Virus record (IMG/VR): IMGVR_UViG_3300033064_002060
Coordinates: 1-23,739 of that record
DNA: 23,739 bases
DNA from: a virus
Direction: 5' to 3' (one strand)
A program made the position numbers and the translations under genes. The notes beneath the pieces were generated by a model. It ran no database searches, was not told where the DNA came from, and saw only the letters and a program-made list of their open reading frames with translations. Positions 755 through 22,136 of this stretch are shown here, piece by piece (position 1 is the stretch's first letter; every line of letters begins with the position of its first letter).

Positions 755-777
755 ATATGTTTTCTCCTGTTGTTTAT

Positions 778-787
778 TATAAATATA
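778..787 (-). promoter_or_regulatory. Late-promoter-like octamer, inverted, upstream of the 105-aa gene
   Basis: The plus strand reads TATAAATATA here, so the coding strand reads TATATTTATA. The octamer ends 23 bases before the ATG at 754, with the Shine-Dalgarno in between, which is a workable promoter and leader geometry. TATAAATA is the T4 late promoter sequence, but here it faces away from the genes. Function is inferred from its recurrence in other gaps. Confidence 0.4.
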
Positions 788-790
788 ATG

Positions 791-3700
791 TTATGTATCA
801 AAACGGACAATAATATTGACTGGCCAATCAATTAAATTTTTTATAGGACGCCCAAGTTTGCCAACTGCCACAAGTTGATTGTCTTGATATAATCCAATTG
901 TTGTGACACATGGTGACAAAAATGAACCAGTTGCATCATATGATGAACTATATTGATAGCCAATAAATTCTGGATTGACTCTGAATGGATCATTTCCACA
1001 ATATGGATTTAGATAATCTTCTATATCTTTCACATATCTACGAGCAGAATCTGATGTGAGATATTGTGCCAAAGTACTTGGATTCAATCTCTTCAACACA
1101 TACAGTGCCAATATATGACCATCATTCATGTTGATATTTCCATCACCGTCAATATCTAATAAACCAGTATCATATAAATTATTTGTTATAAATATATATG
1201 CGGTATTGGTGAACGCAGACAGATATGAATATTTTACGCTGGATGCTGTATCATCTTCTTGTTGTAACACATCTTCAGATTCTGTTTGAAGAATATCATT
1301 TGCCCACCAACTAAAATCGGTGTTTGTATCTTGTTCCAAAACAATGCCATTATCATCCAACACATAATCTGCATAAAACTTCTTGAGCTTCAAATATCTC
1401 ATAATAAGATCCACATCTTTATGATCAAATACACCATCTTGATTCACATCAAATGTAAGAGGATTTGGCTGCAATGAAGTTGGGTTGGTACTATAATTAA
1501 ATTCACCCGGTCTTATTGATACAAGATATTCATGTTCATATATTGTATGAGCACCTTGATAATCCAACGTAAATCCGCGAGAACCCGTTGCTGTCATCAC
1601 ATCATGATACATTGATGATGTGTTGGTGATTGCCAAATGTCCATTCTTATAAAATACATTGCCAATCTTTGGATCGGCTTCATATTTGTTCATGTCATAC
1701 ACAAACACAGAACCGGAATATGATGATGAAAATGAACCAGATTGATTTACTGGATTAATTATCTGTGAATAAGATGCCAGCGATGCAGTATTCACAATTG
1801 GTGCTCCGACGCACATAAAATCAGATGCAATAGAAACAGAATATCCATATATGTTGTATGGATGATTTTCTTCTTTGTTTCTTCTCAATTCACCAGCTCT
1901 ATACCAAGCATCATTTGTGAAATCAAAATTATACAATGTTACTCTACCCAACACAGAATCTAAAGAAGCAGAAGATTCGTAAGAATAATTTTCTAATATA
2001 TAAGAACCACTGGAATATACCACAGTTCTACCCAAAGTATCTGGCAGAGATGTCACCGCCGCTATTGTGCCATCAATAGACACAGCATGTCCAAAATTAT
2101 TATTGGTCAAATATTCTCTGTTTCCAAATGTTTTTGTAATCAAATCATATTGCCATGCCAAACAGTCTGAGTTGTATCTGTAAGTGTATAAATAAGCCGC
2201 ACCAAGAATCATTGCACTTCCTGTATATCCATAATATGGTTTAAAACCTTTATCGGCTTTGCACCCGATAATCAAGTTCTTTCCGCTTATATCCACGCCG
2301 TAACCGAACATGTCGGACACAATTGTACCAGACACATCAACAGAATATTCCGGTGCATCAATATCCAAATCGCCATAACCCGAAGTTGCGGTGAATAGTT
2401 GATTTTGACTCCAAGATGCAGTTGGACATGCGGATAGAGATGCTGAGTGATAAGAACATGTGAACACAGTCGCGTAGCCTTTGCCGGTTTTGTTTGTTCC
2501 CACAACCAATCGGTTTGAATCCAAAGATACGCACCAACCAAAATTGTCACCAGCCGACTGATTGCTAGACGTGATTGTAGTTTCATACACCCACGAATAG
2601 TTTCCGGAAACAAATGTTGGTGTGTAACTTTGTGACGCAATATATGAACCTGTTTGTAGCTCTTTGCAAAAATCTTCTTGTGTAACAACCTGCATCCAGA
2701 CTGAACCCGTGTCAATGTTTTGACACGGATATTCAGAATCCATGTATCTTTTCTTTCTGTACAAATATACCGCACCCTTACTGCCGCTAACACCCGTGGC
2801 ACCAACAGCAAGAATATCATTGTCTATGGCAACCGAAGTACCAAATCTGTCTTCATCACTCTTTCCTTTTAGAATATTAATTATTCCCCAATTATCTTGA
2901 CCACCCTTGTATCTGTCGTAAACACACACAAAACCTGGATACATACTGGAAGAACAAACAGACCCCGTTGGAGAACCAACCGCCAAGAAATTGTCTCTTA
3001 CACACAAAGATGTACCAAACGAGTCTTTAAAATATGAAGATGTATCAGTCAAACTTTGAGTAAATGGAAAATGAATCTTTGCAATTGGGCGATGATGACC
3101 CAGTGTTTCATCATACTTGAATAACGCAGCGTGACCAATACGAGAATCAGATAAACTATAAGCATCCATTGATGAACCAACTGCAACATATTTTGACCAA
3201 CAGCTCACGGATTCACCAAAGTGTTCATTTTCAGGAAAAAATAAATCTTGGTAGCTGCTTGTGTTCAATATAAAGGCAGATCCACTTGGAGTTGGTGAAA
3301 CATATGTCACTTGAAGCCCCATTGCCATATATTGTTTGGCATTCACATAATCAACATATTGCGTAGTACCATTACTGAATGTTACATAAAATAAACCACT
3401 GCCCGTGTCCCACTGTGAAATTGATACACGAGTGTCTCTTATGGCTTGTATCTCCGCCGTTGATGGAAAGTGAGATCCCGTCACATACAAATTGGTATAA
3501 CTATCATCGTAAATTTTTAGCGTTTGATGGATGTTGGAATCATCCACAATTTTAACTGTATCTGGTATAACCTTTTCACCGTATACATTATGTTTCAATG
3601 TTGCAGTAATGATACGATCATGAATTTCACGAACTTCTTCTTTTCCAGTTTTTTGGTCTTGAGTATATGCTTCAACGCCAAATAACTTGATTGGTTCACC

Positions 3701-3979
3701 CGCATTCTTATAAAACATAGCATCAGTCATGCTGTGTATATTTCTTGAATATTTACCGGAAGAATTTATTGGCTCATTGGCAGAAACATAGTATATGCTA
3801 CCAGAAGGATAAAAAGGAGTAGAAAGTTTCAGTCCTTCATTCACTTCCATTCTTCCATTATAATAAGTGTTATCACCATATACATTTACACTCGCGGAGT
3901 CAATACTTTGCATCGTCCAATGTTTGAACGTGCTAAATGGTCTTACTGTGATGTCTCCCGCAGTGAACTGCTTAATCAT
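791..3979 (-). CDS. Tail-fibre-like protein: FG-GAP beta-propeller plus split dockerin-like segment
   Basis: A 1062-aa virion-type protein. Seven FG-GAP-like repeats run from about residue 252 to 800. Their cores are FGESVSCWSKYVAVG, FGTSLCVRDNFLAVG, FGTSVAIDNDILAVG, FGWCVSLDSNRLVVG, FGYGVDISGKNLIIG, FGHAVSIDGTIAAV and YGYSVSIASDFMCVG. This fits an integrin-type seven-bladed propeller. Two EF-hand-like calcium loops of dockerin type follow, DVNQDGVFDHKD at 844 and DIDGDGNINMND at 942. The N-terminus (MIKQF...DI) and C-terminus (VTTIGLYQDNQLVAVGKL) match the neighbouring 380-aa protein, so the central part looks like a module exchange on a shared virion-anchoring scaffold. The role is probably adhesin or receptor binding at the tail tip. 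No signal peptide or membrane segment is visible. The ATG at 3979 has no clear Shine-Dalgarno. Domain calls are strong; the exact virion position is inferred. Confidence 0.78.
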   Translation of the reverse strand: MIKQFTAGDITVRPFSTFKHWTMQSIDSASVNVYGDNTYYNGRMEVNEGLKLSTPFYPSGSIYYVSANEPINSSGKYSRNIHSMTDAMFYKNAGEPIKLFGVEAYTQDQKTGKEEVREIHDRIITATLKHNVYGEKVIPDTVKIVDDSNIHQTLKIYDDSYTNLYVTGSHFPSTAEIQAIRDTRVSISQWDTGSGLFYVTFSNGTTQYVDYVNAKQYMAMGLQVTYVSPTPSGSAFILNTSSYQDLFFPENEHFGESVSCWSKYVAVGSSMDAYSLSDSRIGHAALFKYDETLGHHRPIAKIHFPFTQSLTDTSSYFKDSFGTSLCVRDNFLAVGSPTGSVCSSSMYPGFVCVYDRYKGGQDNWGIINILKGKSDEDRFGTSVAIDNDILAVGATGVSGSKGAVYLYRKKRYMDSEYPCQNIDTGSVWMQVVTQEDFCKELQTGSYIASQSYTPTFVSGNYSWVYETTITSSNQSAGDNFGWCVSLDSNRLVVGTNKTGKGYATVFTCSYHSASLSACPTASWSQNQLFTATSGYGDLDIDAPEYSVDVSGTIVSDMFGYGVDISGKNLIIGCKADKGFKPYYGYTGSAMILGAAYLYTYRYNSDCLAWQYDLITKTFGNREYLTNNNFGHAVSIDGTIAAVTSLPDTLGRTVVYSSGSYILENYSYESSASLDSVLGRVTLYNFDFTNDAWYRAGELRRNKEENHPYNIYGYSVSIASDFMCVGAPIVNTASLASYSQIINPVNQSGSFSSSYSGSVFVYDMNKYEADPKIGNVFYKNGHLAITNTSSMYHDVMTATGSRGFTLDYQGAHTIYEHEYLVSIRPGEFNYSTNPTSLQPNPLTFDVNQDGVFDHKDVDLIMRYLKLKKFYADYVLDDNGIVLEQDTNTDFSWWANDILQTESEDVLQQEDDTASSVKYSYLSAFTNTAYIFITNNLYDTGLLDIDGDGNINMNDGHILALYVLKRLNPSTLAQYLTSDSARRYVKDIEDYLNPYCGNDPFRVNPEFIGYQYSSSYDATGSFLSPCVTTIGLYQDNQLVAVGKLGRPIKNLIDWPVNIIVRFDT

Positions 3980-3980
3980 A

Positions 3981-4000
3981 TAGACATAAATATTTGTCTA
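3981..4000 (-). promoter_or_regulatory. Inverted repeat with late-promoter-like core before the fibre gene
   Basis: TAGACA at 3981-3986 and TGTCTA at 3995-4000 form a six-base-pair stem. The region between and overlapping contains CATAAATA (3985-3992), one mismatch from the octamer seen in other gaps. The element ends two bases before the start codon of the 1062-aa gene, so it could act on translation as an RNA hairpin as well as, or instead of, on transcription. Confidence 0.35.
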
Positions 4001-5175: not shown

Positions 5176-5817
5176 TTAAGAGGACGTGGTTCCCTTTACA
5201 TTCACACTAACCGGTATTGTCACAGAACCGCCGCTTTCATTTCCAATCACAGTGAGCGTTGCATTTAAGGTTTGTGTCAGTGCTGAGTTTGGAACAAAAC
5301 GGAAACGAAGACCAAGGCTAACTTGAACAGTCGTCGAAGAAACGTCTCCAATGAAGGTTGGAATGGTTGCGGTTGTAACATTCTGAAGTTGTTCACCGAT
5401 TATTGTACCAGCCGACTTGTTAGACAAAATTGCCGTGTAACCAAGAGTTGTGTTGTAAACTGGGTTGGTGGACGGAATAATGATCACTTCACCCTTATAG
5501 TCCTTGTCCACATAAATTGCACTTTGTCCGAGAGAAATGACTGGAATAGAAGTAACGCCGGAAGGAAGAGTGACGAGCTTGTATTTCAACAATTGTGTTT
5601 CGTCGGTAAATGCCTCAAATACAGGAGTGTTGCGAATAGCCAAATCATAATAGGCAGAACCTTGTGGATGATTTGGTTGATACAGACGATAATCAATTTC
5701 GTCGTCGGACAAGGCATATGACTTGATATTCAATCCACCATTTGCCGCAAGCAGCTCTCTACCTTTCTTTGTCAAGACCGCATCCACTGTTATTATTTCA
5801 TTATTGATATACGCCAT
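5176..5817 (-). CDS. Structural protein, 213 aa, probable baseplate/tail component
   Basis: No named family is recognised. The N-terminus (about residues 9-45) has the pattern VDAVLTKKGRELLA followed by SYALSDDEIDY, a signature I associate with small phage tail proteins. The rest (about 100-213) is beta-rich with alternating Val/Thr and a Ser/Gly-rich end, as in an immunoglobulin-like or jelly-roll domain, without Cys or membrane segments. It sits between the 1561-aa P2 gpI/LamG protein and the 380-aa fibre-like protein. A weak purine stretch, TAGAAAG, precedes the ATG at 5817. Its role is inferred from position: joining fibre-type proteins to the baseplate is one possibility. Confidence 0.55.
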   Translation of the reverse strand: MAYINNEIITVDAVLTKKGRELLAANGGLNIKSYALSDDEIDYRLYQPNHPQGSAYYDLAIRNTPVFEAFTDETQLLKYKLVTLPSGVTSIPVISLGQSAIYVDKDYKGEVIIIPSTNPVYNTTLGYTAILSNKSAGTIIGEQLQNVTTATIPTFIGDVSSTTVQVSLGLRFRFVPNSALTQTLNATLTVIGNESGGSVTIPVSVNVKGTTSS

Positions 5818-5833: not shown

Positions 5834-5841
5834 AATAAATA
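5834..5841 (-). promoter_or_regulatory. Late-promoter-like octamer variant upstream of the 213-aa gene
   Basis: The plus strand reads AATAAATA, followed by TATAT. This is one mismatch from the TATAAATA octamer in other gaps and has the same inverted orientation. It lies 16 bases upstream of the ATG at 5817 in a 50-base gap, and probably starts or boosts the 213/380-aa transcript. Confidence 0.33.
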
Positions 5842-10553: not shown

Positions 10554-10771
10554 AGTTCTTTGAATGTAACATCATATTTTGTTTCTACTTTGGTTGGATC
10601 ATACACCACATTCTGTAGAGGAATCATTATTGATGATGAATACAACTGACCCTGCACGTTTTGTATAATCAAATTACCGTATGAATCTATATTCAGTGCG
10701 ATTGATCCGCTTTGATATAGCTTCTGTACGTCATCTTGGTTGTATCCCGTTAGATTTGGATTTGCGTTCAT
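10550..10771 (-). CDS. Hypothetical 73-aa protein in the baseplate operon
   Basis: Unrecognised. It is a short soluble protein with a helical N-terminal half (NQDDVQKLYQSGSIAL) and a likely beta-rich remainder (YGNLIIQNVQGQLYSSSIMI). It is joined to both neighbours by four-base ATGA overlaps: with the 448-aa gene at its start and the 1561-aa gene at its end. This tight coupling supports it being a real gene expressed in step with them. It could be a small linker or chaperone for the large wedge protein; that is inference only. Confidence 0.6.
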   Translation of the reverse strand: MNANPNLTGYNQDDVQKLYQSGSIALNIDSYGNLIIQNVQGQLYSSSIMIPLQNVVYDPTKVETKYDVTFKEL

Positions 10772-12114
10772 CTAGAAATCTTGAATGCGGTTGGAACGGT
10801 GAACGTCATAATAGACCCGCTTTGCTCCGAACGAATTTCCACTTTGAAATATCTTTCTTGAGGAAGGCAAGTTGTATCCAACATAAAATAATTTTCATTT
10901 CCATCAAAACTCAACCTGGTGTATTTGTCGTATGGCATCACGGTTTCTTCGCTTTCTGCATCTTTTATAGAATAGAAACTACCCGTTGGAAGATAATATG
11001 GAGCCATATAATCAGAAAATTTATTTGTGAATGTCTTGACTGGATAACGTTTTCTGGCGGATACATCCATTCTTAATATAGATCCAAATTTATATTGTTT
11101 TGACATGTTTTTCATGTTAACAACCGCATCGCGAATTTGAATTTGATCGGCACTGCCCGTGGTAATTGTTGCATCTTCCCATGCCACATCAATACACGGA
11201 GAATATACAGTGTTGGTTTCTTTTGAGAAGAAACGCAACTTACCATAATCTATAGAACTGGACTCATCACTGTGCATCAATATCAAACCATTGTTCCGGA
11301 TCTGTCCCGTCAACCACGCATTCACGATTGTGGTGACATCCATTCTAACATCCGAAGTTTGATAATCAAAACTTTGATAACAAGTATACGAACCCGTTAC
11401 ATGTGGAATTGGACTTGGAACCGGTGGAATGTATGGAGCGGTTGGGCAATCCGGATAATACACAGACGCGGTTACATACTGAGGATCTGCGTAACCGACA
11501 CCGTATGCAATTGATCCACTTTGAAGCCACCACGCACCTCCACCAGAACAATCAGTCAAAGAACTGCTATACCAAGTCTTGGAATATCCGTCAGAGAACT
11601 TCCAATTTGCACCATCCGACTGGGCTTGTCCATCATACTTGTATCCAGTTCCCATTTCCCACGACTGTGATACCGGATATGCAGCCAGAGTATATTCAAC
11701 CGGAACTTCTTTGGACTCACACACTTTCAAGTTTAGATAAAACTTTGGATTTACTGGTCTGTATGCATCGTTAGATGCAATTGATTTTGATATCTCGGTC
11801 AAATCAAAGTTTAATAACGCCCTTGATAAAACCGATCCCGCTGTGACTTCTCCCGACACAAGTCTATAAGAACTGGACACTATGCGCGAGTCTGTTGACC
11901 CCGATGCATAAGAAGCGGACATAGAGCCACTCAATAGTTGTATGCTGGAGCTGGTGTAAGAAATAAGTACAGGAAACGTGGATGTGCTTGAACAACTATC
12001 AAAGGAAATCCGCTTTTCCACTTCAAGAATTTCGTCCAACCCCATGTTCTTGAGCATATATGACGGCTCGTTACTGATGGTGGTGTCTTTGGTTGGATAT
12101 AAAAAGTAATGCAT
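10768..12114 (-). CDS. DNRLRE-like (carbohydrate-binding-like) structural protein
   Basis: A 448-aa protein whose N-terminal 300 residues follow the DNRLRE/CBM6-like beta-sandwich pattern. This begins with YPTKDTTIS near residue 6. SRALLNFDLTEI lies near 95-108, SQSWEMGTG near 150, and VRMDVTTIVNAWLTGQ is followed by NGLILMHSDE near 255-285. In known proteins this fold occurs in cell-surface and carbohydrate-active proteins, which suggests glycan or surface binding. The remaining 150 residues (KRYPVKTF..., CLPQERYFKVEIR) are beta-rich and unassigned. Several Cys (CSGG, CPTAP, CYQSF) are present, which is unusual beside its Cys-poor neighbours. It lies between the gp6-like gene and the gpI-like gene, so it is probably mounted on the wedge. 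The ATG at 12114 has a weak AAAGAA upstream. Confidence 0.6.
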   Translation of the reverse strand: MHYFLYPTKDTTISNEPSYMLKNMGLDEILEVEKRISFDSCSSTSTFPVLISYTSSSIQLLSGSMSASYASGSTDSRIVSSSYRLVSGEVTAGSVLSRALLNFDLTEISKSIASNDAYRPVNPKFYLNLKVCESKEVPVEYTLAAYPVSQSWEMGTGYKYDGQAQSDGANWKFSDGYSKTWYSSSLTDCSGGGAWWLQSGSIAYGVGYADPQYVTASVYYPDCPTAPYIPPVPSPIPHVTGSYTCYQSFDYQTSDVRMDVTTIVNAWLTGQIRNNGLILMHSDESSSIDYGKLRFFSKETNTVYSPCIDVAWEDATITTGSADQIQIRDAVVNMKNMSKQYKFGSILRMDVSARKRYPVKTFTNKFSDYMAPYYLPTGSFYSIKDAESEETVMPYDKYTRLSFDGNENYFMLDTTCLPQERYFKVEIRSEQSGSIMTFTVPTAFKISR

Positions 12115-12132: not shown

Positions 12133-12142
12133 TATAAATATA
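12133..12142 (-). promoter_or_regulatory. Late-promoter-like octamer, inverted, upstream of the DNRLRE gene
   Basis: The plus strand reads TATAAATATA; the coding strand reads TATATTTATA. It lies 18 bases upstream of the ATG at 12114 in a 55-base gap after gp6. It may give the DNRLRE/73-aa/1561-aa group its own start of transcription. Confidence 0.42.
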
Positions 12143-12169: not shown

Positions 12170-14125
12170 TTAACTCACACGTCCCACAATGTCTTTTGTG
12201 GGAAATCTTACTTCAAATATCGAAGGATCAATTGATGGATATACCACTTTGTCCAATGTGGCTTTGGAAATGTCATATTCGTATGGAGAATAATCACCAT
12301 CTCGCAATGTCAAATTTTTTATTTTCAATAAAGAAACAGATTGTACACCGCCGATCTTGGCAATTTCAAGCTCCAAACGACTGAGATTTATTGGTTGGCA
12401 GAACTGAATATTGTTTATATCAAAGAATTGTTGCACCAAAGTTAAACAGTTTGCCAATACTTCACGTTTGTTATAATTTTTATAAGCAATGATGGTGAAG
12501 TCCACCCCGATATTTATTATATATCCATCCAATAAATTTACACTGTCTGTTAACATGCGATATTGATTGAGATAGTTCTTGAGATTTTGACGAATTGCCT
12601 CGTTGGTATTTATCAAACGCTGATTGGTATCATAACCAAGTAAATATAGATTGATAGCAAATGGATTATTTTGGTTGATATTCTTGCGATTTGTATTTTC
12701 CGGTGCAAATGAATTCACAGACAATTGGTTTGGTTGTAGTTGAATATCCGGAGAATCCAAGTTGGTATCCGCTACGGCATATGCTTTGGCAATTGAACCG
12801 TATTTTGAAGGCATTGCGTATGTTCTTACAACATAATCTTTTTGGGTCACTGCTCGGCCTTGTGCAGAAAAACTTGATAATGCATTGTTGCGAATTTCAT
12901 CATTGGTTTCTGAACCGCGACCACCAGAAGCAGGAACTGGGTTGTTTACTTTTACAGAACGTCTAACTAAATTTGTCAACCCCTGATCAAATACCGGCAA
13001 TTCTGTGATATCTCCAAAGAATTCCACGTTGGTGATGTTCTTGATAGTATTGGCGTTAACATTGCTTTCTAATCCCCCACCGGTTATATAACGAATGGTC
13101 AATGTTGTGTTGCTTGGAGCTTGTCCAAATGCTCTGGACGACAGAAAGTTTGCTGGGTCATAGTTTATGCTCTCATTTCTGAATGTGTTTGGCTTTCCAA
13201 CCGTATATACATTTGGAACAATAATCTCATCGTCGGCAATATTTGTTCCAGAACCAAACTCTATAAATGTTGTATTGTCCGATTCAACGCCCGTAACAAA
13301 TCGTTTGGATGTTCGAAGATACTTCAACAAGAACGGAACGGTGTCTCTGTGTGAAGAAAGTGACATATCGTTTTTGTATATATTCTCACTTTCAATTGGC
13401 ACTAAATCCTGTGCAAGATAATCTGTTTCATGCCACCGATTTCCGTCAGAATCATATACATCAAAAACTTCAATGATATTTGTTTCAGAAAGATATATTT
13501 TATAAAATGGAGATGGTGCTGATATGCTCACGGTCTTGGTTATCAATTGACCCGAAAATGCTTCAGCGGACTTTTTTAATACATAAAATTCTGGCTGACC
13601 AGCAGCGTTGCGTTGATATACAGAAACTTCAAGTGGATCGTTCTGGGTATCTACAGTAAAGTCCACTGGTACACTTGTCAAAAATGAAACGCCAGAATCG
13701 CTGGTAGCAGACATACCCGGTTTTATGATTTGAGCATAACTCATATCTGGGACAATGCTACCGTCTTCTGAAATTTTTGATGGCACCAATTGATATACAT
13801 CAAAATTTGTGACGCTGGGTGCGGTTGGTTTTGACTTGTAGCTCAACGAACGAGCAGAATCAATAATATTTTGACGCTCTTCTGAATTAACCAACATAGA
13901 TTCTTTGAATTGATAATCTATGTAGTATGATAATACATCACCAACATAAGCCGCCATTTCAATATACATCATTCCCGGTGAAGCATCACTAAAATCCTTG
14001 TATGTGTTTGGATAATATGTTTTAGAAAAATCAATCAAAGACTGTTTCAATTGCGAAAAGTCCTTGCTGAGATACTTAATATCTCTTTTTCCCGGTTGAA
14101 AAGATTTTGGTGTGTCTAAAATCAT
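12170..14125 (-). CDS. 6: Baseplate wedge protein, T4 gp6 / phage J-like
   Basis: A 651-aa protein, close to the 660 aa of T4 gp6. The N-terminus carries the T4-like wedge pattern: KYLSKDFSQLKQSLIDF, then DASPGMMYIEMAAYVGDVL at about residues 48-70 and YYIDYQFKES. Near residues 425-445 is the J-like core RAVTQKDYVVRTYAMPSKYG followed by IAKAYAV. The C-terminus ends PSIFEVRFPTKDI. In T4, gp6 dimers form the inner ring of the baseplate together with gp7, gp53 and gp25. The start overlaps gp25 by ATGA, as expected for subunits made in ratio. No truncation or frameshift is seen. Confidence 0.9.
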   Translation of the reverse strand: MILDTPKSFQPGKRDIKYLSKDFSQLKQSLIDFSKTYYPNTYKDFSDASPGMMYIEMAAYVGDVLSYYIDYQFKESMLVNSEERQNIIDSARSLSYKSKPTAPSVTNFDVYQLVPSKISEDGSIVPDMSYAQIIKPGMSATSDSGVSFLTSVPVDFTVDTQNDPLEVSVYQRNAAGQPEFYVLKKSAEAFSGQLITKTVSISAPSPFYKIYLSETNIIEVFDVYDSDGNRWHETDYLAQDLVPIESENIYKNDMSLSSHRDTVPFLLKYLRTSKRFVTGVESDNTTFIEFGSGTNIADDEIIVPNVYTVGKPNTFRNESINYDPANFLSSRAFGQAPSNTTLTIRYITGGGLESNVNANTIKNITNVEFFGDITELPVFDQGLTNLVRRSVKVNNPVPASGGRGSETNDEIRNNALSSFSAQGRAVTQKDYVVRTYAMPSKYGSIAKAYAVADTNLDSPDIQLQPNQLSVNSFAPENTNRKNINQNNPFAINLYLLGYDTNQRLINTNEAIRQNLKNYLNQYRMLTDSVNLLDGYIINIGVDFTIIAYKNYNKREVLANCLTLVQQFFDINNIQFCQPINLSRLELEIAKIGGVQSVSLLKIKNLTLRDGDYSPYEYDISKATLDKVVYPSIDPSIFEVRFPTKDIVGRVS

Positions 14126-14526
14126 ATATTATTTGTGTTCATACCAACCTGTAATGTTTGTTGGTCAAAAACTCCAATGGATGGAACGGTGAATACAACA
14201 GATACATCCAAGCGATTATAATTATTATCTTTGTTATTCAACACAGATACAGATTGCACATTCACATAACTCATCCATTTGGCAATGTCTCTGCGAATCG
14301 TGCTATCAATGATTGGGGTCATGTCATCTGCCATATTCTCAAACAAAACATTCCACAACCCAGAACCAAAATCCGGATTCATTCTGCGTTCTCCCTTTTT
14401 TGTTTTTAGCAACAAATTTAAGTTGGATTTTACTTGTTCAATTACACTGATACTTTGGTTAAAATAACCCTGCGGCCCATGCGTGATGGGAAGAACTATA
14501 CCATAAGTCTGTGTTGTTGTTGCCAT
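14122..14526 (-). CDS. 25: Baseplate wedge protein gp25 (GPW/gp25 family)
   Basis: A 134-aa protein matching the gp25 length of about 132. The family motif is present at residues 43-55: KKGERRMNPDFGS, the segment that usually carries the EPR-like core (here E-R-R). This is followed by GLWNVLFEN, a predicted helix, and a beta C-terminus (LDVSVVFTVPSIG). In T4, gp25 binds gp6 and primes sheath polymerisation. It starts two bases after the 149-aa gene and overlaps gp6 at its end. The E-R-R in place of the usual E-x-R spacing is only a minor variation. Confidence 0.9.
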   Translation of the reverse strand: MATTTQTYGIVLPITHGPQGYFNQSISVIEQVKSNLNLLLKTKKGERRMNPDFGSGLWNVLFENMADDMTPIIDSTIRRDIAKWMSYVNVQSVSVLNNKDNNYNRLDVSVVFTVPSIGVFDQQTLQVGMNTNNI

Positions 14527-14528: not shown

Positions 14529-14978
14529 TTATGCAGGTCTACCAGACTTTGCTTTGGCATCCATCGCTCTCATCAATTTGGAATAGTCTCTGGTCATAGC
14601 GTTTGCTACGGCAGCAATATCCTTGTTTTCAGCCAATACTTCTTTTGGCATATTTTTTATGGTGTCTATAACCGAAGGAACGGACGCCGAATTTTCGTCC
14701 GGAATTCCTCCGACCGTCTCGTTTAATATTTGGTTGAATATTGGGTTTGATGAAAAGGTTCTTGGTGCTTGTACAGGTGCTTTTTTAAGCGGTGCCTCGA
14801 AAGTAACAGAAGAATTCTTTCTTGGCGCGGAGACCTGAACTGGGATTTTTTCTTCCACAATTATCGGTTGAGCCGTAATTCTTTCGGCCAACACTTCCAT
14901 GAGATATTGAGGAAGAGCATTGTTGATTTCTTCCCGCACAACCGTTCTGACGATTTCTACCAGTTCTTTCTTGTTCAT
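14529..14978 (-). CDS. Hypothetical 149-aa protein between the hub genes and gp25
   Basis: No family is recognised. Residues 1-35 are an amphipathic helix (MNKKELVEIVRTVVREEINN) suited to oligomerisation. Residues 40-75 are Pro/Val/Lys-rich and likely unfolded (EEKIPVQVSAPRK). The C-terminal third (SVIDTIKNMPKEVLAENKD, then MTRDYSKLMRAMDAK) is again helical. The start is firm: AAGGA lies about 10 bases before the ATG at 14978, preceded by the TATAAATATA element. A helix-linker-helix protein in this position could be an assembly or chaperone factor for the hub or wedge. That is inferred from layout only. Confidence 0.6.
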   Translation of the reverse strand: MNKKELVEIVRTVVREEINNALPQYLMEVLAERITAQPIIVEEKIPVQVSAPRKNSSVTFEAPLKKAPVQAPRTFSSNPIFNQILNETVGGIPDENSASVPSVIDTIKNMPKEVLAENKDIAAVANAMTRDYSKLMRAMDAKAKSGRPA

Positions 14979-14993: not shown

Positions 14994-15003
14994 TATAAAT
15001 ATA
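14994..15003 (-). promoter_or_regulatory. Late-promoter-like octamer, inverted, upstream of the 149-aa gene
   Basis: The plus strand reads TATAAATATA; the coding strand reads TATATTTATA. It lies 15 bases upstream of the ATG at 14978, with the AAGGA ribosome site between. It would drive the 149-aa gene, gp25 and gp6. Confidence 0.42.
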
Positions 15004-15918: not shown

Positions 15919-17346
15919 TTAATCAACTCCCCCAGCAACAAACACTCTACCACTCATGAGCGAACTCAATTGAGAGCGAAGAGCCAGCAAACTGACCTGT
16001 GACGCTTGCAGAGATAGCAATTGTTCCGCCCATAAGACCGACGCGGGTGGTAATATAGGAAGTAGGGTTGGACCGGTTTTGGTCAAATGCAAATGGGTCT
16101 GTAGGGTCATTAGCACTTGAATTTGTGTATTAACATTTAGTAACATCCAATCGCACATTGAATACATCCACGCCACTGTACTTCTACCCAACAACGCTGG
16201 CTCATATGTTTTTCCATGGTCTCCCAAATATATCTTGGGGGAATTTATTGTCGTCGTTTTTAACGCGGTTATCGTCATTCTATCAAAGCAGGATATGGAA
16301 ATTGAGTCGTCACTCGTCATTCCAATTTTCTTTTTGGAGAAGAAAAACATTTCATTGGCTTTGGAAGAAAATACCAACCTATCGCTGTTTATCACAATCT
16401 GATCACCGTCCAGTTTTGGTAAACTAACCAACTTGTTTCCTCGTATTATTGCGTTCGTTGTGGTAGGTTGAAATTTTGAAATAGTTTTTCCAGAAGTAAT
16501 GTGTACGGAAGATCCATCTTTATTTATATCTTCTTCAGTGTATCCTTTTGAGGTAAATCCTTCTAGATTTTTAATTGGTGCTTGACTATTACGCAAAATA
16601 ATCTTTGAATTTCCACCACCATCGGCATAATCATCTTTTCCATTATCATTTCCACGATTATCGTCATATGCTCCAAATCTTATAGAAGATCCAAATCTTG
16701 ATTCCAGTATAGTATCTCCTTCATATCTTTTTAGAGCACGAATCTTTGGATTGAACTTAAAATAGTTTCCCAATACTCCTGTATAATTTTCTCCACCAGA
16801 AAAATTCAATGTTGAATTTGGTCCAGTGTATGGTTCTCCGTTGTTGTATTCATCTGTATTTTGATCTACCCAACCAGACACACGCTCAGTTATAAAACTT
16901 GCATTGCTATTCACAACCGATTTGAAGTTTAATTTACGAGAATAGAAATAGCTTTCCATATATCTACCAACAATCACCATTTCATTCATCAACGGCCACT
17001 CGGTTATACCAGTATTTTCAATTGGATATGCCCAACCAAGTTGTTCTTTATCTTTACCTCTTTCACTGTTCAAGAATCTAAATTTTATTGCACCAATTTG
17101 ACCATAATCATTTGTTCCAGCAACCGGTTCACTGCCATCTATGTTCGGTGGAAAATCGTTAGCATCCAATTCATCTGTAAATGCTGGATGTTTATCGTCT
17201 AATATAATATCCAGCACCACCGCTTCTTCCAATTCAAAGAAATAACTTGTATCAGGTTTGCGTTCAATAACAAACCTTTTTGAAGCAAGCATGTCATCTT
17301 GCTTTATGTTGAGGTCACTTCTGCGTTCTGTTTCTGTGTATGACAT
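15919..17346 (-). CDS. 5: Baseplate central hub protein, T4 gp5-like, no lysozyme domain
   Basis: A 475-aa protein. The N-terminal 130 residues look like the gp5 OB-fold region that docks to the hub (for example YGQIGAIKFRFLNSERG, then GWAYPIENTGITEWPLMNEMV near 103-123). Residues about 310-390 form short repeats typical of the gp5 beta-helix needle: QIVINSDRLVFSSKANEM, FFFSKKKIG, SISISCFDRMTI, TTINSPKIYLG. The T4 lysozyme domain between these parts is missing; the corresponding stretch is Gly/Asn/Asp-rich. The C-terminus (AWMYSMCDWM, LQTHLH, then a Leu/Ser helix ending MSGRVFVAGG) is as I know it from marine T4-like gp5 homologues. The gene overlaps the upstream 126-aa gene by one base (TAATG). 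The hub call is fairly secure. Confidence 0.75.
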   Translation of the reverse strand: MSYTETERRSDLNIKQDDMLASKRFVIERKPDTSYFFELEEAVVLDIILDDKHPAFTDELDANDFPPNIDGSEPVAGTNDYGQIGAIKFRFLNSERGKDKEQLGWAYPIENTGITEWPLMNEMVIVGRYMESYFYSRKLNFKSVVNSNASFITERVSGWVDQNTDEYNNGEPYTGPNSTLNFSGGENYTGVLGNYFKFNPKIRALKRYEGDTILESRFGSSIRFGAYDDNRGNDNGKDDYADGGGNSKIILRNSQAPIKNLEGFTSKGYTEEDINKDGSSVHITSGKTISKFQPTTTNAIIRGNKLVSLPKLDGDQIVINSDRLVFSSKANEMFFFSKKKIGMTSDDSISISCFDRMTITALKTTTINSPKIYLGDHGKTYEPALLGRSTVAWMYSMCDWMLLNVNTQIQVLMTLQTHLHLTKTGPTLLPILPPASVLWAEQLLSLQASQVSLLALRSQLSSLMSGRVFVAGGVD

Positions 17347-17726
17347 TATTTGGGTTCTGCTTTTGATTTTTCTGGAGACTTCATTGTTTTGGCGGTTTCT
17401 TCTATAGCCGACATGAGTTGCTTTTTTTCTTCCTCAGTCAATATTGTACCACCACCTTCACCATCCGGTCCAACCTTACCAGACATCAATCGTTGAATAA
17501 TGGCAGCAAGTTTGATTAGTTGCTCATCATTGCGCACAGACACATCAAAATATTCCTTGAGCAACGGAACGATTGTAACAGCGTCATTTACAGTCTTGAT
17601 CATGTCCTTCAAGTCGGTGATCAATATGTCCAACTGATCTTTCTTTTGTTCTGAGTTATTTATAATATCTTTGCACAAAGAAGCAAAACTTTTTCCCTTG
17701 TAAATCTCAAATTCATATGTTTCCAT
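17346..17726 (-). CDS. Hypothetical 126-aa protein coupled to the hub gene
   Basis: Family unknown. It is mostly helical and charged: an N-terminal strand (YEFEIYKGKSF), a long helix (about residues 20-80, ending NDEQLIKLAAIIQRLMSGK), a Gly-rich linker (GPDGEGGG), and a Lys/Glu-rich tail. Its TAA overlaps the ATG of the gp5-like gene, so the two are probably translated together. A hub-assembly role, as for the T4 hub chaperone genes, is possible but unproven. The start at 17726 is preceded only by AGG, three bases after an octamer that itself abuts the gene, so the leader would be very short if that octamer is the promoter. Confidence 0.6.
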   Translation of the reverse strand: METYEFEIYKGKSFASLCKDIINNSEQKKDQLDILITDLKDMIKTVNDAVTIVPLLKEYFDVSVRNDEQLIKLAAIIQRLMSGKVGPDGEGGGTILTEEEKKQLMSAIEETAKTMKSPEKSKAEPK

Positions 17727-17729: not shown

Positions 17730-17737
17730 TATAAATA
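17730..17737 (-). promoter_or_regulatory. Late-promoter-like octamer, inverted, abutting the 126-aa gene
   Basis: The plus strand reads TATAAATA. It ends only three bases before the ATG at 17726, too close for a standard leader, so this copy may instead be an operator or processing site. A copy in the normal T4 orientation (coding strand TATAAATA) lies at 17842-17849, inside the end of the sigma gene, and is an alternative promoter for this operon. Confidence 0.32.
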
Positions 17738-17767: not shown

Positions 17768-18670
17768 TCAAGCATCAATACCAGTTATTTTTCCGGTGTT
17801 ATAATATTCCTCTCGTATTTTACGCTGTGGCTCCATGAGCTTATTTATAACTTTGGTGATGTGTTGAGTTTGGCAGTCTGCGATTTCTCGTATATATAGA
17901 TACAATGCTTTTTTATTGAATATATCAATACGATCAGCATTTCTGAATATTTCAACAACTGCATTTGCAATCTTCAAATCACGATCTTTGGTAAAATACT
18001 TGCCCACATTTTGGTCCCAATATTCGACCATGAGTTTGATAAACTCACGTGCTTCACTTTCTTGTTTTTCGTGTTCTGGTTGAACCACAAACTCACCAGA
18101 GTCTCCGGTTTGTTCACAAATCTCAACGTGTTTTTTGAAACGACGATATGTTGTATTGTTGTCCAAAATAAACCAATGTTTGGCTACAATACTAAAATAA
18201 CTGAATGCTTTGCCTTTTCCTTTTTCATATTTGCTCATGTTTGCAACCATATGTGAAATGGCCTGTTTCTGAATATCAAGTGGACTTACATCAGCATAAC
18301 TAAACTTGAATGTATTATAAATATTTTCGGCTATTTTACCAAAAGCACCTTGTATCTTTTCGTTGTATATTTTATCCTTTTCCCTTGGATCTTCGGTTTC
18401 ATTATAAGCAACAATTGCCGATTCTGTGTCTGGAGTAAAGTATACATTGGAAATCTTTTTTTCAACTCCTTCAACTGCCTCTTTTTTATTCTTTTTTCCT
18501 TTTGGTCTACCACGTGGGCGAGAAATCTTTTCATTTACATGAAACTCTTCAGTATGCACAGTTTGTTTCTTGATTTTATTTTTAGGCTTTTGAGTTTTGA
18601 CAACTTTTTTTGTTGGTTTAGATTTTTTTGCAATCTTTTTAGATTTGCCGATTTTTTTAATTTTATTCAT
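17768..18670 (-). CDS. 55: Late-transcription sigma factor, T4 gp55-like, with Lys-rich AT-hook N-terminus
   Basis: A 300-aa protein, longer than T4 gp55 (185 aa). Residues 1-63 are very Lys-rich and include an AT-hook core PRGRPKGK at 52-59, suited to binding the minor groove of AT-rich DNA. The sigma-like part starts near residue 100. It contains a helix pair followed by KGKAFSYFSIVAKHWFI around 153-167, resembling region 2 of gp55-type factors, then RRFKKH. The C-terminal helical region includes KALYLYIREIADC, QTQHITKVINKLM and KIREEYYNTGKI. In T4, gp55 replaces sigma70 on host polymerase and reads TATAAATA late promoters with gp33 and the gp45 clamp. The short hydrophobic clamp-binding tail expected at the C-terminus is not obvious. 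The gene begins five bases after the homing endonuclease stop and has no Shine-Dalgarno (coding strand TAATAAAAATG), as if an insertion displaced it. Confidence 0.66.
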   Translation of the reverse strand: MNKIKKIGKSKKIAKKSKPTKKVVKTQKPKNKIKKQTVHTEEFHVNEKISRPRGRPKGKKNKKEAVEGVEKKISNVYFTPDTESAIVAYNETEDPREKDKIYNEKIQGAFGKIAENIYNTFKFSYADVSPLDIQKQAISHMVANMSKYEKGKGKAFSYFSIVAKHWFILDNNTTYRRFKKHVEICEQTGDSGEFVVQPEHEKQESEAREFIKLMVEYWDQNVGKYFTKDRDLKIANAVVEIFRNADRIDIFNKKALYLYIREIADCQTQHITKVINKLMEPQRKIREEYYNTGKITGIDA

Positions 18671-18675: not shown

Positions 18676-19389
18676 TTATTTGAGTGTTTTTAATTTTCTT
18701 GGTCCCCGTTTTATCCCTATCATTGATAGGGATTTTCTCAGTTTCCGTTCATCTGTCCATTTTCCTTTTGGCCTGCCGATGAGAGATTTTGATATTTTGA
18801 TCTTAGATTCTTCGCTCTGTTTAATGCCAATATGTGATTTTGATAATTTATTACAATGTTCCGATGTAAGAGATTTATTGATTCTACCCGCAGACATTCT
18901 CGCACGGGCTTCAATTGAAACATGATCGCTTCCAATTTTTTGTTTTGCTCGGGCAATTCTTATTTTTTGTTTTGTTTCTTCCGCGTGTTTTTTACCAAGC
19001 ATTGGTTTGTGGTCAAATATACCTCCTGCGTTGCAATTGTAGCCATTTTTCAAAGAATTTTTTTCTTTTATCCAAAAAGTTTCTCTTTCATTTAGAATAT
19101 TACGATCTAATTTGCAAAGTTCTAATATTATTTCTTCAAAATTTTCATATCCATATTTTAATATTGCGCGATATATTTTTGGTTGACCTTTACATCGTAA
19201 CCCCTTGTAATCAGAAAATCTGTTTTTTATTTCGTTGCATGTTTGCCCAACATACCATTTATTTGTAATTTTATTTTTCAATCCGTATATCCCTATCTTT
19301 TTTTGTGTGATATCTCGCGAGATTATTGGCTCGTTCTTTGACGGCGTGTTTCCAATAACTTTGCATTCGTTGTTCGTTGTGTCTTTCAC
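18676..19389 (-). CDS. GIY-YIG homing endonuclease with NUMOD3 repeats
   Basis: A 237-aa freestanding homing enzyme. The GIY-YIG motifs are intact: GIY at 33-35, ten residues, then YVG at 46-48; Arg57 in NEIKNRF; a Glu in NERETFW; and the Asn of NGYNCNAGG closing the domain near residue 125. After residue 125 come NUMOD3-type DNA-binding repeats (GKKHAEETKQKI, SIEARARMSAG, SEESKIKISKSLIGRPKGK, SDERK-like). These enzymes cut intronless alleles and spread themselves into them. The start is a GTG, supported by GAAGGA at 19398-19403, eight bases away. The first 30 residues have no motif and overlap another small reading frame. It sits between the small membrane-protein gene and the sigma gene, with no intron evidence. 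Confidence 0.86.
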   Translation of the reverse strand: MKDTTNNECKVIGNTPSKNEPIISRDITQKKIGIYGLKNKITNKWYVGQTCNEIKNRFSDYKGLRCKGQPKIYRAILKYGYENFEEIILELCKLDRNILNERETFWIKEKNSLKNGYNCNAGGIFDHKPMLGKKHAEETKQKIRIARAKQKIGSDHVSIEARARMSAGRINKSLTSEHCNKLSKSHIGIKQSEESKIKISKSLIGRPKGKWTDERKLRKSLSMIGIKRGPRKLKTLK

Positions 19390-19429
19390 GTTTTTGATCC
19401 TTCGTTATATTTAATGGTTTTCTTCCCAT
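19271..19429 (-). CDS. Small basic frame overlapping the homing endonuclease start (MGRKPLN type)
   Basis: A 52-aa frame, offset by one base from the endonuclease frame. It begins MGRKPLNITKDQKRERHNEQ and continues with Arg/Lys/Asn-rich helical sequence to a stop at 19271. This 'MGRKxLNxTxEQKxER' opening recurs in short viral proteins as I know them, so it may be real. The rest of the family would normally be longer. It has no Shine-Dalgarno, and its ATG follows an AATAAATA-type octamer by three bases. Possibilities are a leader peptide, the remnant of a gene interrupted by the endonuclease, or the true N-terminus reached by frameshifting. Low certainty. Confidence 0.35.
   Translation of the reverse strand: MGRKPLNITKDQKRERHNEQRMQSYWKHAVKERANNLARYHTKKDRDIRIEK
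19398..19403 (-). promoter_or_regulatory. Shine-Dalgarno deciding the GTG start of the homing endonuclease
   Basis: The coding strand reads GAAGGA eight bases before the GTG at 19389. It is one of the better ribosome sites in the window and favours this GTG over a later start. It lies inside the overlapping small frame that begins at 19429. Confidence 0.6.
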
Positions 19430-19432: not shown

Positions 19433-19440
19433 AATAAATA
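19433..19440 (-). promoter_or_regulatory. Late-promoter-like octamer variant upstream of the endonuclease/sigma genes
   Basis: The plus strand reads AATAAATA (then TA), one mismatch from the octamer in other gaps and in the same inverted orientation. It lies in the 91-base gap before the homing endonuclease and could transcribe the endonuclease and the sigma factor together. Confidence 0.3.
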
Positions 19441-19735: not shown

Positions 19736-19888
19736 TTATTCCTCGTCTTCTTCAAGTTCCTCGGCTTCATAACCAAGTTCTTCTTTTAGTATTGTTAGAG
19801 CATCTTCAACGGCTGGCCAACTGTGTCGTTCAAGTGCATGTTCAAGCAGTTCTTTTATTTCTTCAAGGTTATCAATGTTTATGTTCAT
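19736..19888 (-). CDS. Acidic 50-aa hypothetical protein
   Basis: A short frame starting one base after the peptide deformylase stop and ending three bases before the next gene, so it sits snugly in the operon. The protein is highly acidic, with about 18 Glu/Asp. Residues 5-37 form predicted helices (NLEEIKELLEHALERHSW, then VEDALTILKEEL), and the C-terminal tail is EELEEDEE. No motif is known. Its spacing and the codon-filled gap are the evidence that it is expressed. Confidence 0.55.
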   Translation of the reverse strand: MNINIDNLEEIKELLEHALERHSWPAVEDALTILKEELGYEAEELEEDEE

Positions 19889-19889
19889 A

Positions 19890-20504
19890 TTATAGAATTT
19901 TCCAGCCTTGCTCCACGAGTTCCAAAGCCTTCTTGTATTTTATATATTGAGTTTCTCCGGATTTTTCCACCATAACTTTGTCATTTCTTCCATGTTTCAC
20001 TTTTTTCTCGACCGTTGGAACAAAACGAATGCCTTCATCAATCATCAACACTCCGTTGGTATGATCTGTTTCATGCTGAATACATATACTTTCTAGCAAG
20101 CCCAAGTCCTTGCCCACAGATTCTTGGGTGATGGGGTCTGTATCTGGTCCAAATGAAAGAGGATTGGCATGATTGAGAGTGGACACCGTGACCTTCAGTG
20201 AACGAACTGTGTTGGTAAGCTTGCCGGGCAAACTCAAACAACCTTCGGTGAATATTAGTTTTTCTTTACTTGCCTCAATAATTGTTGGGTTGATTAGAAT
20301 AATAGGCGGATTATCTTTACGAACTCTTACAATTGATACCGCCTTGGGTATTCCTATTTGTATGGCAGAAAGACCAATACCATGTGAAAGTGTATCCAAA
20401 GCCTCTATCAATTTTTTGGCTATTTCTTCACCTTCTTGTATTGTTGATACTGGTTCGGTTTTCTTGTGTAGAATATCTTTATTTTTGACAATTTTGTAAC
20501 TCAT
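19890..20504 (-). CDS. def: Peptide deformylase with insertion and C-terminal extension
   Basis: A 204-aa enzyme. All three metal-site motifs are intact: GIGLSAIQ at 42-49, EGCLS at 87-91 (zinc-binding Cys89) and QHETDH at 143-148 (His144, Glu145, His148). Peptide deformylase removes the N-formyl group from nascent proteins; phage versions are thought to keep phage or photosystem protein maturation going. Two additions are unusual. About 20 residues lie before the HExxH helix (FGPDTDPITQESVGKD near 118-133), and a C-terminal tail (KHGRND...YIKYKKALELVEQGWKIL) resembles the end of some phage SEC-C-like proteins. An in-frame GTG at 20534 would add ten residues, but a TTGACA element and leader fit the ATG at 20504 better. 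No Shine-Dalgarno is seen for either. It heads a small operon with the 50-aa and 83-aa genes. Confidence 0.92.
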   Translation of the reverse strand: MSYKIVKNKDILHKKTEPVSTIQEGEEIAKKLIEALDTLSHGIGLSAIQIGIPKAVSIVRVRKDNPPIILINPTIIEASKEKLIFTEGCLSLPGKLTNTVRSLKVTVSTLNHANPLSFGPDTDPITQESVGKDLGLLESICIQHETDHTNGVLMIDEGIRFVPTVEKKVKHGRNDKVMVEKSGETQYIKYKKALELVEQGWKIL

Positions 20505-20529
20505 ATTTTGTGAATGGTCGTATATACAA

Positions 20530-20565
20530 TTCACATATATATGCTAAATGTTTATATTGTCAATA
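20530..20565 (-). promoter_or_regulatory. Sigma70-like promoter candidate upstream of peptide deformylase
   Basis: The coding strand reads TTGACA (within ATTGACAATAT, itself a short palindrome), then about 16-17 bases to a TATATG/ATATGT -10-like hexamer that overlaps the GTG at 20534. If used, transcription would begin downstream of that GTG and favour the ATG at 20504 as the start of peptide deformylase. The palindrome could also be an operator. Confidence 0.4.
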
Positions 20566-20588
20566 TATAATAAACAAAATGTAAAGAA

Positions 20589-22103
20589 TTATTCTTTGTG
20601 CATTTTAACTTTGCCACTTGATATGCCATGTGGATTGATTGGTGCCGGTGGCAGCGATGTTCTGAGCGTGCCGTCTGGCGAAATTGATTCTGGTGATACA
20701 ACAACATCAACCACAACAGATTCATTGACCAAAACATCTTCTGTAACTGCGTCGGACGTTGGTGTTGGTTCTGGTGTGGATGTTGGTGCAGTTGTCGGCG
20801 TGGATGTTGATGTCGGTTCTGGCTCTGTCACAATCTTTGGTTGTTGTTTATTTTTTGATTTTTCACCTGTCCCAATCAATGTATTAAACGCCAAAATTAA
20901 ACATATTGCCAATGGATCAAACACAGCAATAATGGTCCAAATAAAATAATTAACTGCATCGTCCAATGGAATGTTTAGACTTTTAGCAATAAATTTGAAT
21001 GTGCCCACGTCTGTGTTCACAATTTTTTGCTGTGTATCAGTGTTTTGTGCTCGCAATGTTTGTATATTGTTTTGATATTCAGTTATCTTTTGCTTACTTT
21101 GTTCAGTCATTTCACCTTTTTTGGTGTTTAATGTAGCAATCTTTTCGTCTGTTTCTTTGTTGTATGCTGTTATAGATGCAGCAATTTCAGCACTTTCTTT
21201 TTCAACATTCTTTATATTTGTATCTATTTCACTTCTTTGAGATTTGCCGCGAGATTCAATTGCTACCACACGATCATTATATTCTTTTACTTGACTAGCA
21301 TATTGCTGACGAAGTTTTTCTATTCTGTCTTGTGAAGATTTTATTTGAGTATCAATGTCATCACGTTCTTTTTGTTGTGATTGTTTGATTTCTCGCGCTT
21401 TGTCCAAGCCACCTTTTTTGAATATGTTTCCACTGCCTTGGTCTATCCATTTTTGTACTTCTTTGTCCAATATCTCAAGTCGTGAATTATACAACTTTAT
21501 TTGTTCAAGTTCTCTACCAACCTCAGAATCTGTAGATGATTTAGAAAGTTCCAATGCTTGTTTTGCTGATATGATATCAGCCGAAGCATCTTTGTTTGTG
21601 TCAGTTGATTTTCTTATAGTTTCTGTTTGCTGACTCTTTTGATTTATAAGCAAAGTACGCTGTTCAATTATTTTCTTTCTGTTGTCTTCAATAGATCGTA
21701 TTTCTGCTTCATTATAAGTTGATGTCTTCAATGATGCTATCTCTTTATCCATTTCATTGATATTGGTTATATTTGCTTCTATTTGATGTTCATAACCCTG
21801 CACAGCGATAGATGTGGCAGTATATCCTGCACTCAAATATCCATATATACCAATTGAGGTTATAAACATAAGAAAAAATGTGGCTATGACCATGTATGTT
21901 TTCATCCACAAAGTTATGTCGTTCCATTTTTGTTTGAGAAATGTGGCAGTAATAAGTTTGCCAACTTCCAATGCAGTTCCCATTATTATAATGGATATGC
22001 CGCCGCCAACAAACAACAATTTTAGACCAACGATGCTAAAATAAGCACCGCAAGCGGATATAACAATTGCACTCAATAATACTAAAAATGCTAAAAAGGT
22101 CAT
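20589..22103 (-). CDS. Membrane-anchored coiled-coil protein with Pro/Thr-rich tail (DUF4407-like)
   Basis: A 504-aa protein of unknown function. Three hydrophobic segments lie at about 2-22, 26-53 and 69-92. A long charged coiled coil covers about 100-365 (Lys/Glu/Gln/Ser-rich, for example QRTLLINQKSQQTETIRK). A fourth membrane segment spans about 387-409 (FIWTIIAVFDPLAICLILAF). The C-terminal 90 residues begin with a Thr/Ser/Pro repeat tract (about 428-450) and end in KMHKE. This 3-TM, coiled-coil, 1-TM layout resembles bacterial DUF4407 proteins; I cannot run the profile. In a phage it might reorganise the host inner membrane, block superinfection or act in lysis. It has an octamer element 25 bases upstream and no Shine-Dalgarno. 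Confidence 0.68.
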   Translation of the reverse strand: MTFLAFLVLLSAIVISACGAYFSIVGLKLLFVGGGISIIIMGTALEVGKLITATFLKQKWNDITLWMKTYMVIATFFLMFITSIGIYGYLSAGYTATSIAVQGYEHQIEANITNINEMDKEIASLKTSTYNEAEIRSIEDNRKKIIEQRTLLINQKSQQTETIRKSTDTNKDASADIISAKQALELSKSSTDSEVGRELEQIKLYNSRLEILDKEVQKWIDQGSGNIFKKGGLDKAREIKQSQQKERDDIDTQIKSSQDRIEKLRQQYASQVKEYNDRVVAIESRGKSQRSEIDTNIKNVEKESAEIAASITAYNKETDEKIATLNTKKGEMTEQSKQKITEYQNNIQTLRAQNTDTQQKIVNTDVGTFKFIAKSLNIPLDDAVNYFIWTIIAVFDPLAICLILAFNTLIGTGEKSKNKQQPKIVTEPEPTSTSTPTTAPTSTPEPTPTSDAVTEDVLVNESVVVDVVVSPESISPDGTLRTSLPPAPINPHGISSGKVKMHKE

Positions 22104-22128
22104 GTTGTATATATAATTTGTATGAATA

Positions 22129-22136
22129 TATAAATA
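22129..22136 (-). promoter_or_regulatory. Late-promoter-like octamer, inverted, upstream of the membrane coiled-coil gene
   Basis: The plus strand reads TATAAATA; the coding strand reads TATTTATA. It lies 25 bases upstream of the ATG at 22103 and downstream of the intrinsic terminator at 22181-22210, consistent with restarting transcription after that stop. Confidence 0.42.

Follow-up and report, generated by a model that had tools for sequence, protein, structure and literature searches.

An octamer upstream of genes in distant relatives of phage T4: a probable late-promoter box with two placements before the start codon

The late promoter of phage T4, TATAAATA, works with gp55, gp33 and gp45, and T4 late transcription is the textbook example of replication-coupled transcription. 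In IMG/VR virus record IMGVR_UViG_3300033064_002060 the same octamer recurs on the plus strand in the gaps between genes, and every accepted gene lies on the minus strand, as had been described. The entire record of 23,739 bases, possibly a fragment, was analysed and is called the window here; its phage is taken as a distant relative of T4. A preliminary description read the word as a late-promoter octamer running opposite to the genes. Which way does the word point, what does it do and which protein reads it?

The opposite orientation is an effect of reading. Read along the coding strand, the octamer becomes TATTTATA, the T4 box with its two central bases changed, and it points towards the genes in the normal direction. 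We consider it quite probable that TATTTATA is a -10-like late-promoter box of this phage group, with two placements before the start codon and a gp55-like sigma factor as its reader.

The five exact copies of plus-strand TATAAATA in gaps of the window (778, 12133, 14994, 17730 and 22129), the one-mismatch copies at 3985, 5834 and 19433 and the single gap copy in T4 orientation (22790, at the Hsp20 gene) all lie where the preliminary description placed them. Its exact copies inside genes (1187, 2187 and 18316) are also present, but the list was incomplete: a plus-strand copy at 676, minus-strand copies inside genes at 16521, 17657 and 17842 and seven more one-mismatch words in gaps had been overlooked. 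Over both strands the window holds 13 exact copies against 2.1 expected, a number that none of 100 shuffles reaches. With a hand-set gene list the gaps make up 907 of 23,739 bases (3.8%, close to the 4 percent given before), and the enrichment in them is indeed striking. Sense TATTTATA is found in 5 of 11 same-strand gaps, where a dinucleotide shuffle predicts 0.21, and sense TATAAATA in 1 of 11 (0.31 expected).

A search with the putative sigma factor of the window (17768-18670) gave 59 virus loci, from which six larger contigs were taken: G001 (184.8 kilobases, kb), G002 (297.3 kb), G003 (300.0 of 303.6 kb), G004 (100.0 of 100.3 kb), G005 (99.1 kb) and G006 (91.3 kb). Compared by its gp6-like protein, the window comes closest to Microcystis phage Mel-JY01 (43%), then to LR756508, an uncultured 484-kb phage (40%), and Flavobacterium phage immuto (37%). 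Genes were called with a home-made caller on 20-kb pieces; the analysis covered all but the last 3.6 kb of G003, 318 bases of G004 and 410 bases of immuto, and 260 of the 484 kb of LR756508.

In the comparison with shuffled gaps of relatives that the preliminary description had suggested, sense TATTTATA is concentrated in the gaps of all six contigs. It occurs in 14 of 92 gaps of G001 (1.55 expected), 28 of 158 in G002 (4.44), 12 of 53 in G004 (1.78), 16 of 39 in G005 (0.33) and 12 of 38 in G006 (1.05); in G003 it occurs in 26 of 141, with 3 antisense and 2.3 expected from trinucleotides. Sense TATAAATA was found in 1 gap of G001 (2.28 expected), 6 of G002 (4.15), 4 of G004 (1.85) and 1 of G005 (0.31); G006 is highest of the six contigs, with 4 of 38 gaps against 1.07. 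Pooled motif searches over 380 gaps of five contigs end on sense aTaTTTATAaaa, present in about half of the gaps. TATTTA is in both seed sets, the 40 common hexamers and the 5 hand-chosen words that make up the 45 seeds, and aTaTTTATAaaa is reached from several unrelated seeds besides it. In single contigs TTGAC words rank level with the box or above it. Beyond the six contigs, Mel-JY01 has the box in 11 of 102 gaps, and TATTTATA occurs in none of the 12 gaps of a part of Atu_ph07 and none of the 17 of a part of Rhodothermus phage RM378.

T4 itself was put through the same pipeline, which found TATAAATA in 9 of 110 same-strand gaps and TATTTATA in none; TATAAATA lies upstream of 20 gene starts, at 13-34 nucleotides (nt). 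The pipeline therefore reads orientation correctly, and the window group differs from T4 in two central bases and not in direction. The T4-like contig G014 has TATAAATA in 5 of 104 gaps, at distances of 19-61, and TATTTATA in 1. A second T4-like contig, G013, has TATAAATA in just 1 of 116 gaps and is thus a poor control; a part of S-PM2 has it in 1 of 21.

The distance from the box to the start codon is bimodal. In the six contigs 133 exact boxes lie at most 62 nt upstream of one of 1029 called starts, 3 of them at 0-2 nt, 62 at 3-6 nt, 7 at 7-11 nt, 40 at 12-25 nt and 21 beyond. The 3-6 nt class is the largest, and the peak is at 4 nt with 28 copies. This does not depend on the gene caller. 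Of the 208 copies of TATTTATA in five contigs 49 are followed after 3-6 nt by an ATG with an open frame of 50 codons or more, compared with 1 of 208 for the reverse complement and 187 of 6120 for 40 permuted octamers, the best-scoring of which are shifted overlaps of the box. The same test gives 25 of 65 in G003 (reverse complement 1 of 65), 4 of 45 in immuto, where 15 lie at 12-25 nt, and for T4 with its own box TATAAATA none of 32 under 12 nt.

These controls bear on two other origins of the word. The gaps are about 69% A+T, and such words might arise from composition alone; the dinucleotide shuffles of the same gaps, the permuted octamers and the strand asymmetry exclude this, and we regard it as refuted, with a negligible chance of being correct. 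The plus strand of the window does read TATAAATA, so that a T4 box could be used antisense and give antisense transcripts, or a palindromic box could be used both ways, as the preliminary description suggested. Only sense TATTTATA keeps constrained distances, the reverse complement does not stand just ahead of genes, and sense TATAAATA stays near expectation except in G006 and G004. We rejected an antisense or bidirectional T4 box on this strand asymmetry and consider it very improbable.

No box was found within 40 nt of starts whose upstream gap is shorter than 10 nt, in 240 such starts of the window and five contigs and 90 of immuto, and the box therefore marks operon heads. In seven records, all 48 genes whose box lies no more than 6 nt away start with ATG, which is the norm there, and none of the 48 has AGGA, GGAG or GAGG; the box occupies the position of the Shine-Dalgarno sequence. 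For 123 box-headed genes in eight records, 16 of 20 cross-record families have all their members in one class (up to 6 nt, or more), a count in which some records are close kin and, in several families, some pairwise alignments start after residue 1. In G001, G002 and G005 alike, the box stands 4 nt before the gene for a protein resembling head-tail adaptors, of which the G001 and G005 copies match PHROG_211. Ten short-spacing genes were scanned; two match head-tail adaptor Ad2, one has a weak match to a tape measure protein, two match cytidyltransferase and the rest are unknown or gave none. The preliminary description took the short spacings as an argument against a promoter for some copies. 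Those of 3-6 nt form the largest class, in several genes they are kept between distant genomes, and they are what one would expect of a promoter for a leaderless mRNA.

The copies that lie so close to start codons, often at 4 nt, could instead suggest an element of the mRNA, where the word reads UAUUUAUA, such as a translation operator, a processing site or a ribosome-standby site, with no promoter role. Such an element would still be useful at starts with a gap below 10 nt, where 0 of 240 have it, and the known late box of T4 shows a like absence, with 0 of 106 such starts. The spacing is also bimodal and extends to 25 nt and more, and a gp55-like sigma factor is encoded. An mRNA element is in our judgement unlikely.

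Conservation was followed at each box of the window, all of which lie on the minus strand. Identical upstream sequences were counted once, and protein matches starting past residue 4 were left out for genes 10768-12114, 14529-14978, 17346-17726, 18676-19389 and 20589-22103, or past residue 12 for genes 437-754, 791-3979 and 5176-5817, peptide deformylase and Hsp20. Seven of the eight gap copies have spacings of 3, 5, 15, 16, 18, 23 and 25 nt, as in the range of 3-25 nt given before; for the one at 19433 the distance is 43 or 3 nt, depending on the start codon.

Two boxes of the window belong to the putative leaderless class. The box at 17730-17737 ends 3 nt before the ATG of gene 17346-17726. 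TATTTAT is found in 21 of 23 distinct upstream sequences of this gene (15 at 4 nt, 4 at 3 nt, 1 at 5 nt and 1 at 0 nt); the flanks differ among the rows shown, and the homologous start is ATG in 21 of 23. The one-mismatch box TATTTATG at 3985-3992 lies 5 nt from the ATG of gene 791-3979, and TATTTAT is at 5 nt in all three relatives found.

The more distant boxes are conserved to varying degrees. The box at 14994-15001 is 15 nt upstream of gene 14529-14978 and has AAGGA in the leader. Here TATTTAT is present in 19 of 23 distinct upstream sequences, 9 at 15 nt, 2 at 14 nt, 3 at 13 nt and 5 at 6 nt, and several of the relatives with 13-15 nt have AAGGA in the leader. Gene 20589-22103 has its box 25 nt upstream (22129-22136), and TATTTAT is in 19 of 23 usable distinct upstream sequences at 3-27 nt, a count that leaves out one faulty row (L005). 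For gene 10768-12114, with a box 18 nt upstream (12133-12140), the figures are 14 of 27, with 18 nt in 9. The one-mismatch box TATTTATT at 5834-5841 is 16 nt upstream of gene 5176-5817, where TATTTAT is in 5 of 7 relatives found and at 16 nt in 3 of those. The box at 778-785, 23 nt upstream of the start codon of gene 437-754 with AGGAG in the leader, is likewise at 23 nt in the sole relative locus found.

A second copy of TATTTATT, at 19433-19440, lies 43 nt from the GTG of the GIY-YIG endonuclease gene (18676-19389), or 3 nt from an ATG in another frame at 19429; TATTTAT is at 43 nt before the endonuclease gene in both distinct upstream sequences. The other-frame ATG opens a reading frame of 52 amino acids (19271-19429, minus strand) that overlaps the upstream end of the endonuclease gene.

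The window also encodes two baseplate wedge proteins (12170-14125, called gp6-like, and 14122-14526, gp25-like), Hsp20 and peptide deformylase. TATTTAT was found before the peptide deformylase gene in 0 of 18 relatives and before the Hsp20 gene in 0 of 17. The sense TATAAATA of Hsp20 at 22790 was considered as a true T4 promoter and rejected; it is exact in just 3 of 17 distinct relative upstream sequences, and half of it lies inside a hairpin. This hairpin (22794-22823, minus strand, fold z -2.7) is just upstream of the Hsp20 start region. By eye its arms co-vary in relative L037, and the hairpin may act as an RNA element in the control of Hsp20.

The surroundings of the box were compared with known promoter classes, since the word might be the -10/-7 box of a host sigma factor in ordinary host-type promoters. 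TATATTTA resembles the -7 box of Bacteroidota, the consensus of which we take to be TAnnTTTG. Immuto (L107-L114) has a second promoter class, TTG-N20-TATATTTAGG, at 15 gene starts; these fifteen near-identical promoters, also written TTG-N20-TATATTTAGGTA, lie mainly at 60-80 kb, are probably the early class and look like the Bacteroidota host type. The metagenomic relatives have TTGAC elements in their gaps instead of the immuto type, but share the identical TATTTATA with immuto, including a preceding A or C. No -35 motif was found over 45 nt upstream of 109 dereplicated boxes of the six contigs, where beyond the bases next to the box there is only a weak A/T bias at -29, -17 and -16; roughly 16 nt ahead of the box, the six contigs and immuto both show a weak T/A bias. 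TTGAC is at the right distance for 5 of the 109 boxes and none of 21 in immuto. The box does without the first two bases of TATATTTA: TATTTATA is preceded by A in 70% and by C in 22% (together 92% of the 109 sites), and by A or C in all 21 immuto sites. Downstream of the box A+T is 71-85% in the first four positions, compared with 69% in gaps. TTGAC or TATTTAGG elements are partly separated from the late boxes along G001 and immuto, and 14 of 19 early-type elements of immuto lie at 60-80 kb. The box shared across TTGAC-type relatives and the missing -35 motif led us to judge a host-type promoter less likely, and we would give it only a small chance. The partial separation in G001 and immuto, together with a few structural genes downstream of the box, suggests late timing.

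The probable reader is a sigma-like protein of 300 amino acids encoded at 17768-18670 on the minus strand. It is probably a late promoter recognition factor of the gp55-like kind that carries a further helical domain at its C-terminus. Homologues are present in all six contigs, immuto, Mel-JY01, LR756508 (E 3.6e-75) and RM378 (E 3.9e-12). The AlphaFold model has a mean predicted local distance difference test score (pLDDT) of 69, with residues 1-74 and 186-197 below 50. Its best VIA-align match is T4 gp55 in the open complex (7d7c_F; Z 10.5, 125 residues, root-mean-square deviation 5.3), followed by many sigma factors. As modelled, and with the caution that helical proteins require, the protein has a sigma-2 fold like that of gp55. 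With Foldseek the model has no match in the PDB at E <=0.001 and one nameless viral match at 3.2e-5. The late sigma transcription factor family PHROG_234 is matched by 2 of 17 sigma homologues (best 3.1e-4) and, among 8 relatives, in G002 (6.7e-5) and immuto. The C-terminal helices of the model fall outside the gp55 match. Residues from about 198 to 292 form an extra helical part that by eye is helix-turn-helix-like and is absent from T4 gp55. This part might replace gp33 or sigma-4. No hydrophobic/acidic C-terminal epitope for a sliding clamp was obvious by eye in the sigma sequences examined. The earlier proposal of a new late-promoter form, probably read by the divergent gp55-like sigma factor, is thus the part of the preliminary interpretation that is supported.

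In such a promoter the box would be a variant of the T4 late box in which both central A-T pairs are swapped, and its reader would most likely be the host RNA polymerase carrying the phage sigma factor, without a -35 element. The spacing to ATG would allow transcription to start about one helical turn past the box. A box at least 12 nt from the start codon would give an mRNA with a leader. A box 3-6 nt away cannot yield a leader with a ribosome site, because the RNA begins only past the box, and a start about one helical turn from the box would fall on or next to the A of ATG and produce a leaderless mRNA. The shortage at 7-11 nt would fit if leaders of that length cannot accommodate a ribosome site but already prevent leaderless initiation. 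If the first six bases of the box are the hexamer, a spacing of 4 nt sets the A of ATG seven bases downstream, and seven bases are the usual distance from a sigma-70 -10 hexamer to the start.

Several findings weigh against this reading. The contig counts are not independent, because G001, G002 and G006 are mutually related, likewise G003-G005. The window sigma factor has no PHROG or Pfam match at 0.001, and PHROG_234 is also matched in 2 of 14 control bacteria and is therefore not gp55-specific at weak scores. The Z of 10.5 is inside the uncertain range of the tool for helical proteins, and a profile-profile comparison (hhalign) with 15 T4-type gp55 proteins, which aligns the sigma-2 region, is not significant (probability 2.9, E 0.016). 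The T4-type clamp PF02916 was found in T4 only and in 0 of 8 relatives, a search that divergent clamps may escape and that did not include gp33. T4 has sense TATTTATA at most 70 nt upstream of 7 starts outside same-strand gaps; opposite-strand TATAAATA yields such readings. The boxes of Mel-JY01 are mostly 24-52 nt from the start, with 0 of 63 at 3-6 nt, and in RM378, compared below, the 7-11 nt range is not depleted (11 copies stand at 8-11 nt, as many as at 6 nt) and the two-class pattern is not seen. LR756508 has TATTTATA in just 1 of 198 gaps despite a close sigma homologue; it has neither box clearly, and the link between sigma factor and box is therefore not one to one across the family. 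The T4 box is numbered -13 to -6 (PMC2988020), and the exact T4 geometry with a spacing of 4 nt puts +1 on the T of ATG, so that starts must be one base closer than in T4. Sense ACTTAAA occurs in 19 of 198 gaps of LR756508 (L200-L212), with 5 antisense and 6.4 expected; the signal is weak, its spacing is not distinctive, and it is possibly another late box.

Taken further, we lean somewhat towards a history in which a distant T4-relative lineage, comprising the window group, immuto and probably RM378, re-coded the late box to a TATTTA core with two placements. About half of the window-group boxes would then be joined directly to the start codon, leaderless mRNAs would serve a large fraction of the late genes, and single genes would switch between leaderless and leadered forms among relatives. 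The re-coded central bases and the divergent sigma factor would be a matched set for studying how gp55-type sigma factors read a -10 box. The two spacing classes, the 7-11 nt shortage and the class-switching orthologues could serve as a natural experiment for studying how lytic phages translate leaderless mRNAs.

The closest known system is the T4 late promoter. Both have an 8-bp AT box near gene starts without a -35 element, a phage sigma factor of the gp55 fold type and some structural genes downstream. The T4 consensus TATAAATA was not found as the sense-strand late box of the window group, in which it is not generally enriched. The core of the window group is TT whereas that of T4 is AA, many boxes lie 3-6 nt from ATG whereas none in T4 is nearer than 13 nt, a PF02916-type clamp was not detected, and the window sigma factor has the extra C-terminal helical domain. 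PMC2988020 describes the late box as highly similar across several T4 relatives, and gives Aeromonas phage Aeh1 a variant T4-type consensus with a/gC at -13/-12. Aeh1 is, like the window group, a T4 relative with an altered late box; its change is in the first two positions and not in the centre.

None of the passages of the open-licence literature that we met (including PMC5587285, PMC7892883 and PMC11598898) describes TATTTATA as the late box of a phage, and RM378 promoters are not described in them either, PMC5587285 included. RM378 shares with the window group a homologous sigma factor and a sense TATTTA core. Read whole, it has sense TATTTAA in 15 of 45 gaps, with 3 antisense and 1.4 expected, and in 11 of 61 copies an ATG-opened frame follows after exactly 6 nt; at 3-6 nt the reverse complement gives 3 of 61 and permutations 15 of 1063. 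Its box differs in ending in AA and not TA, and its core is one base farther from ATG than at the 4-nt peak of the window group.

Leaderless phage mRNAs are known from lambda and P2, as cited in PMC4633059, and phage transcripts are called 'often leaderless' in PMC5312081. The transcripts proposed here would likewise start at the start codon. They differ from those of lambda and P2 in that the putative leaderless class is tied to one late box and extends to many genes.

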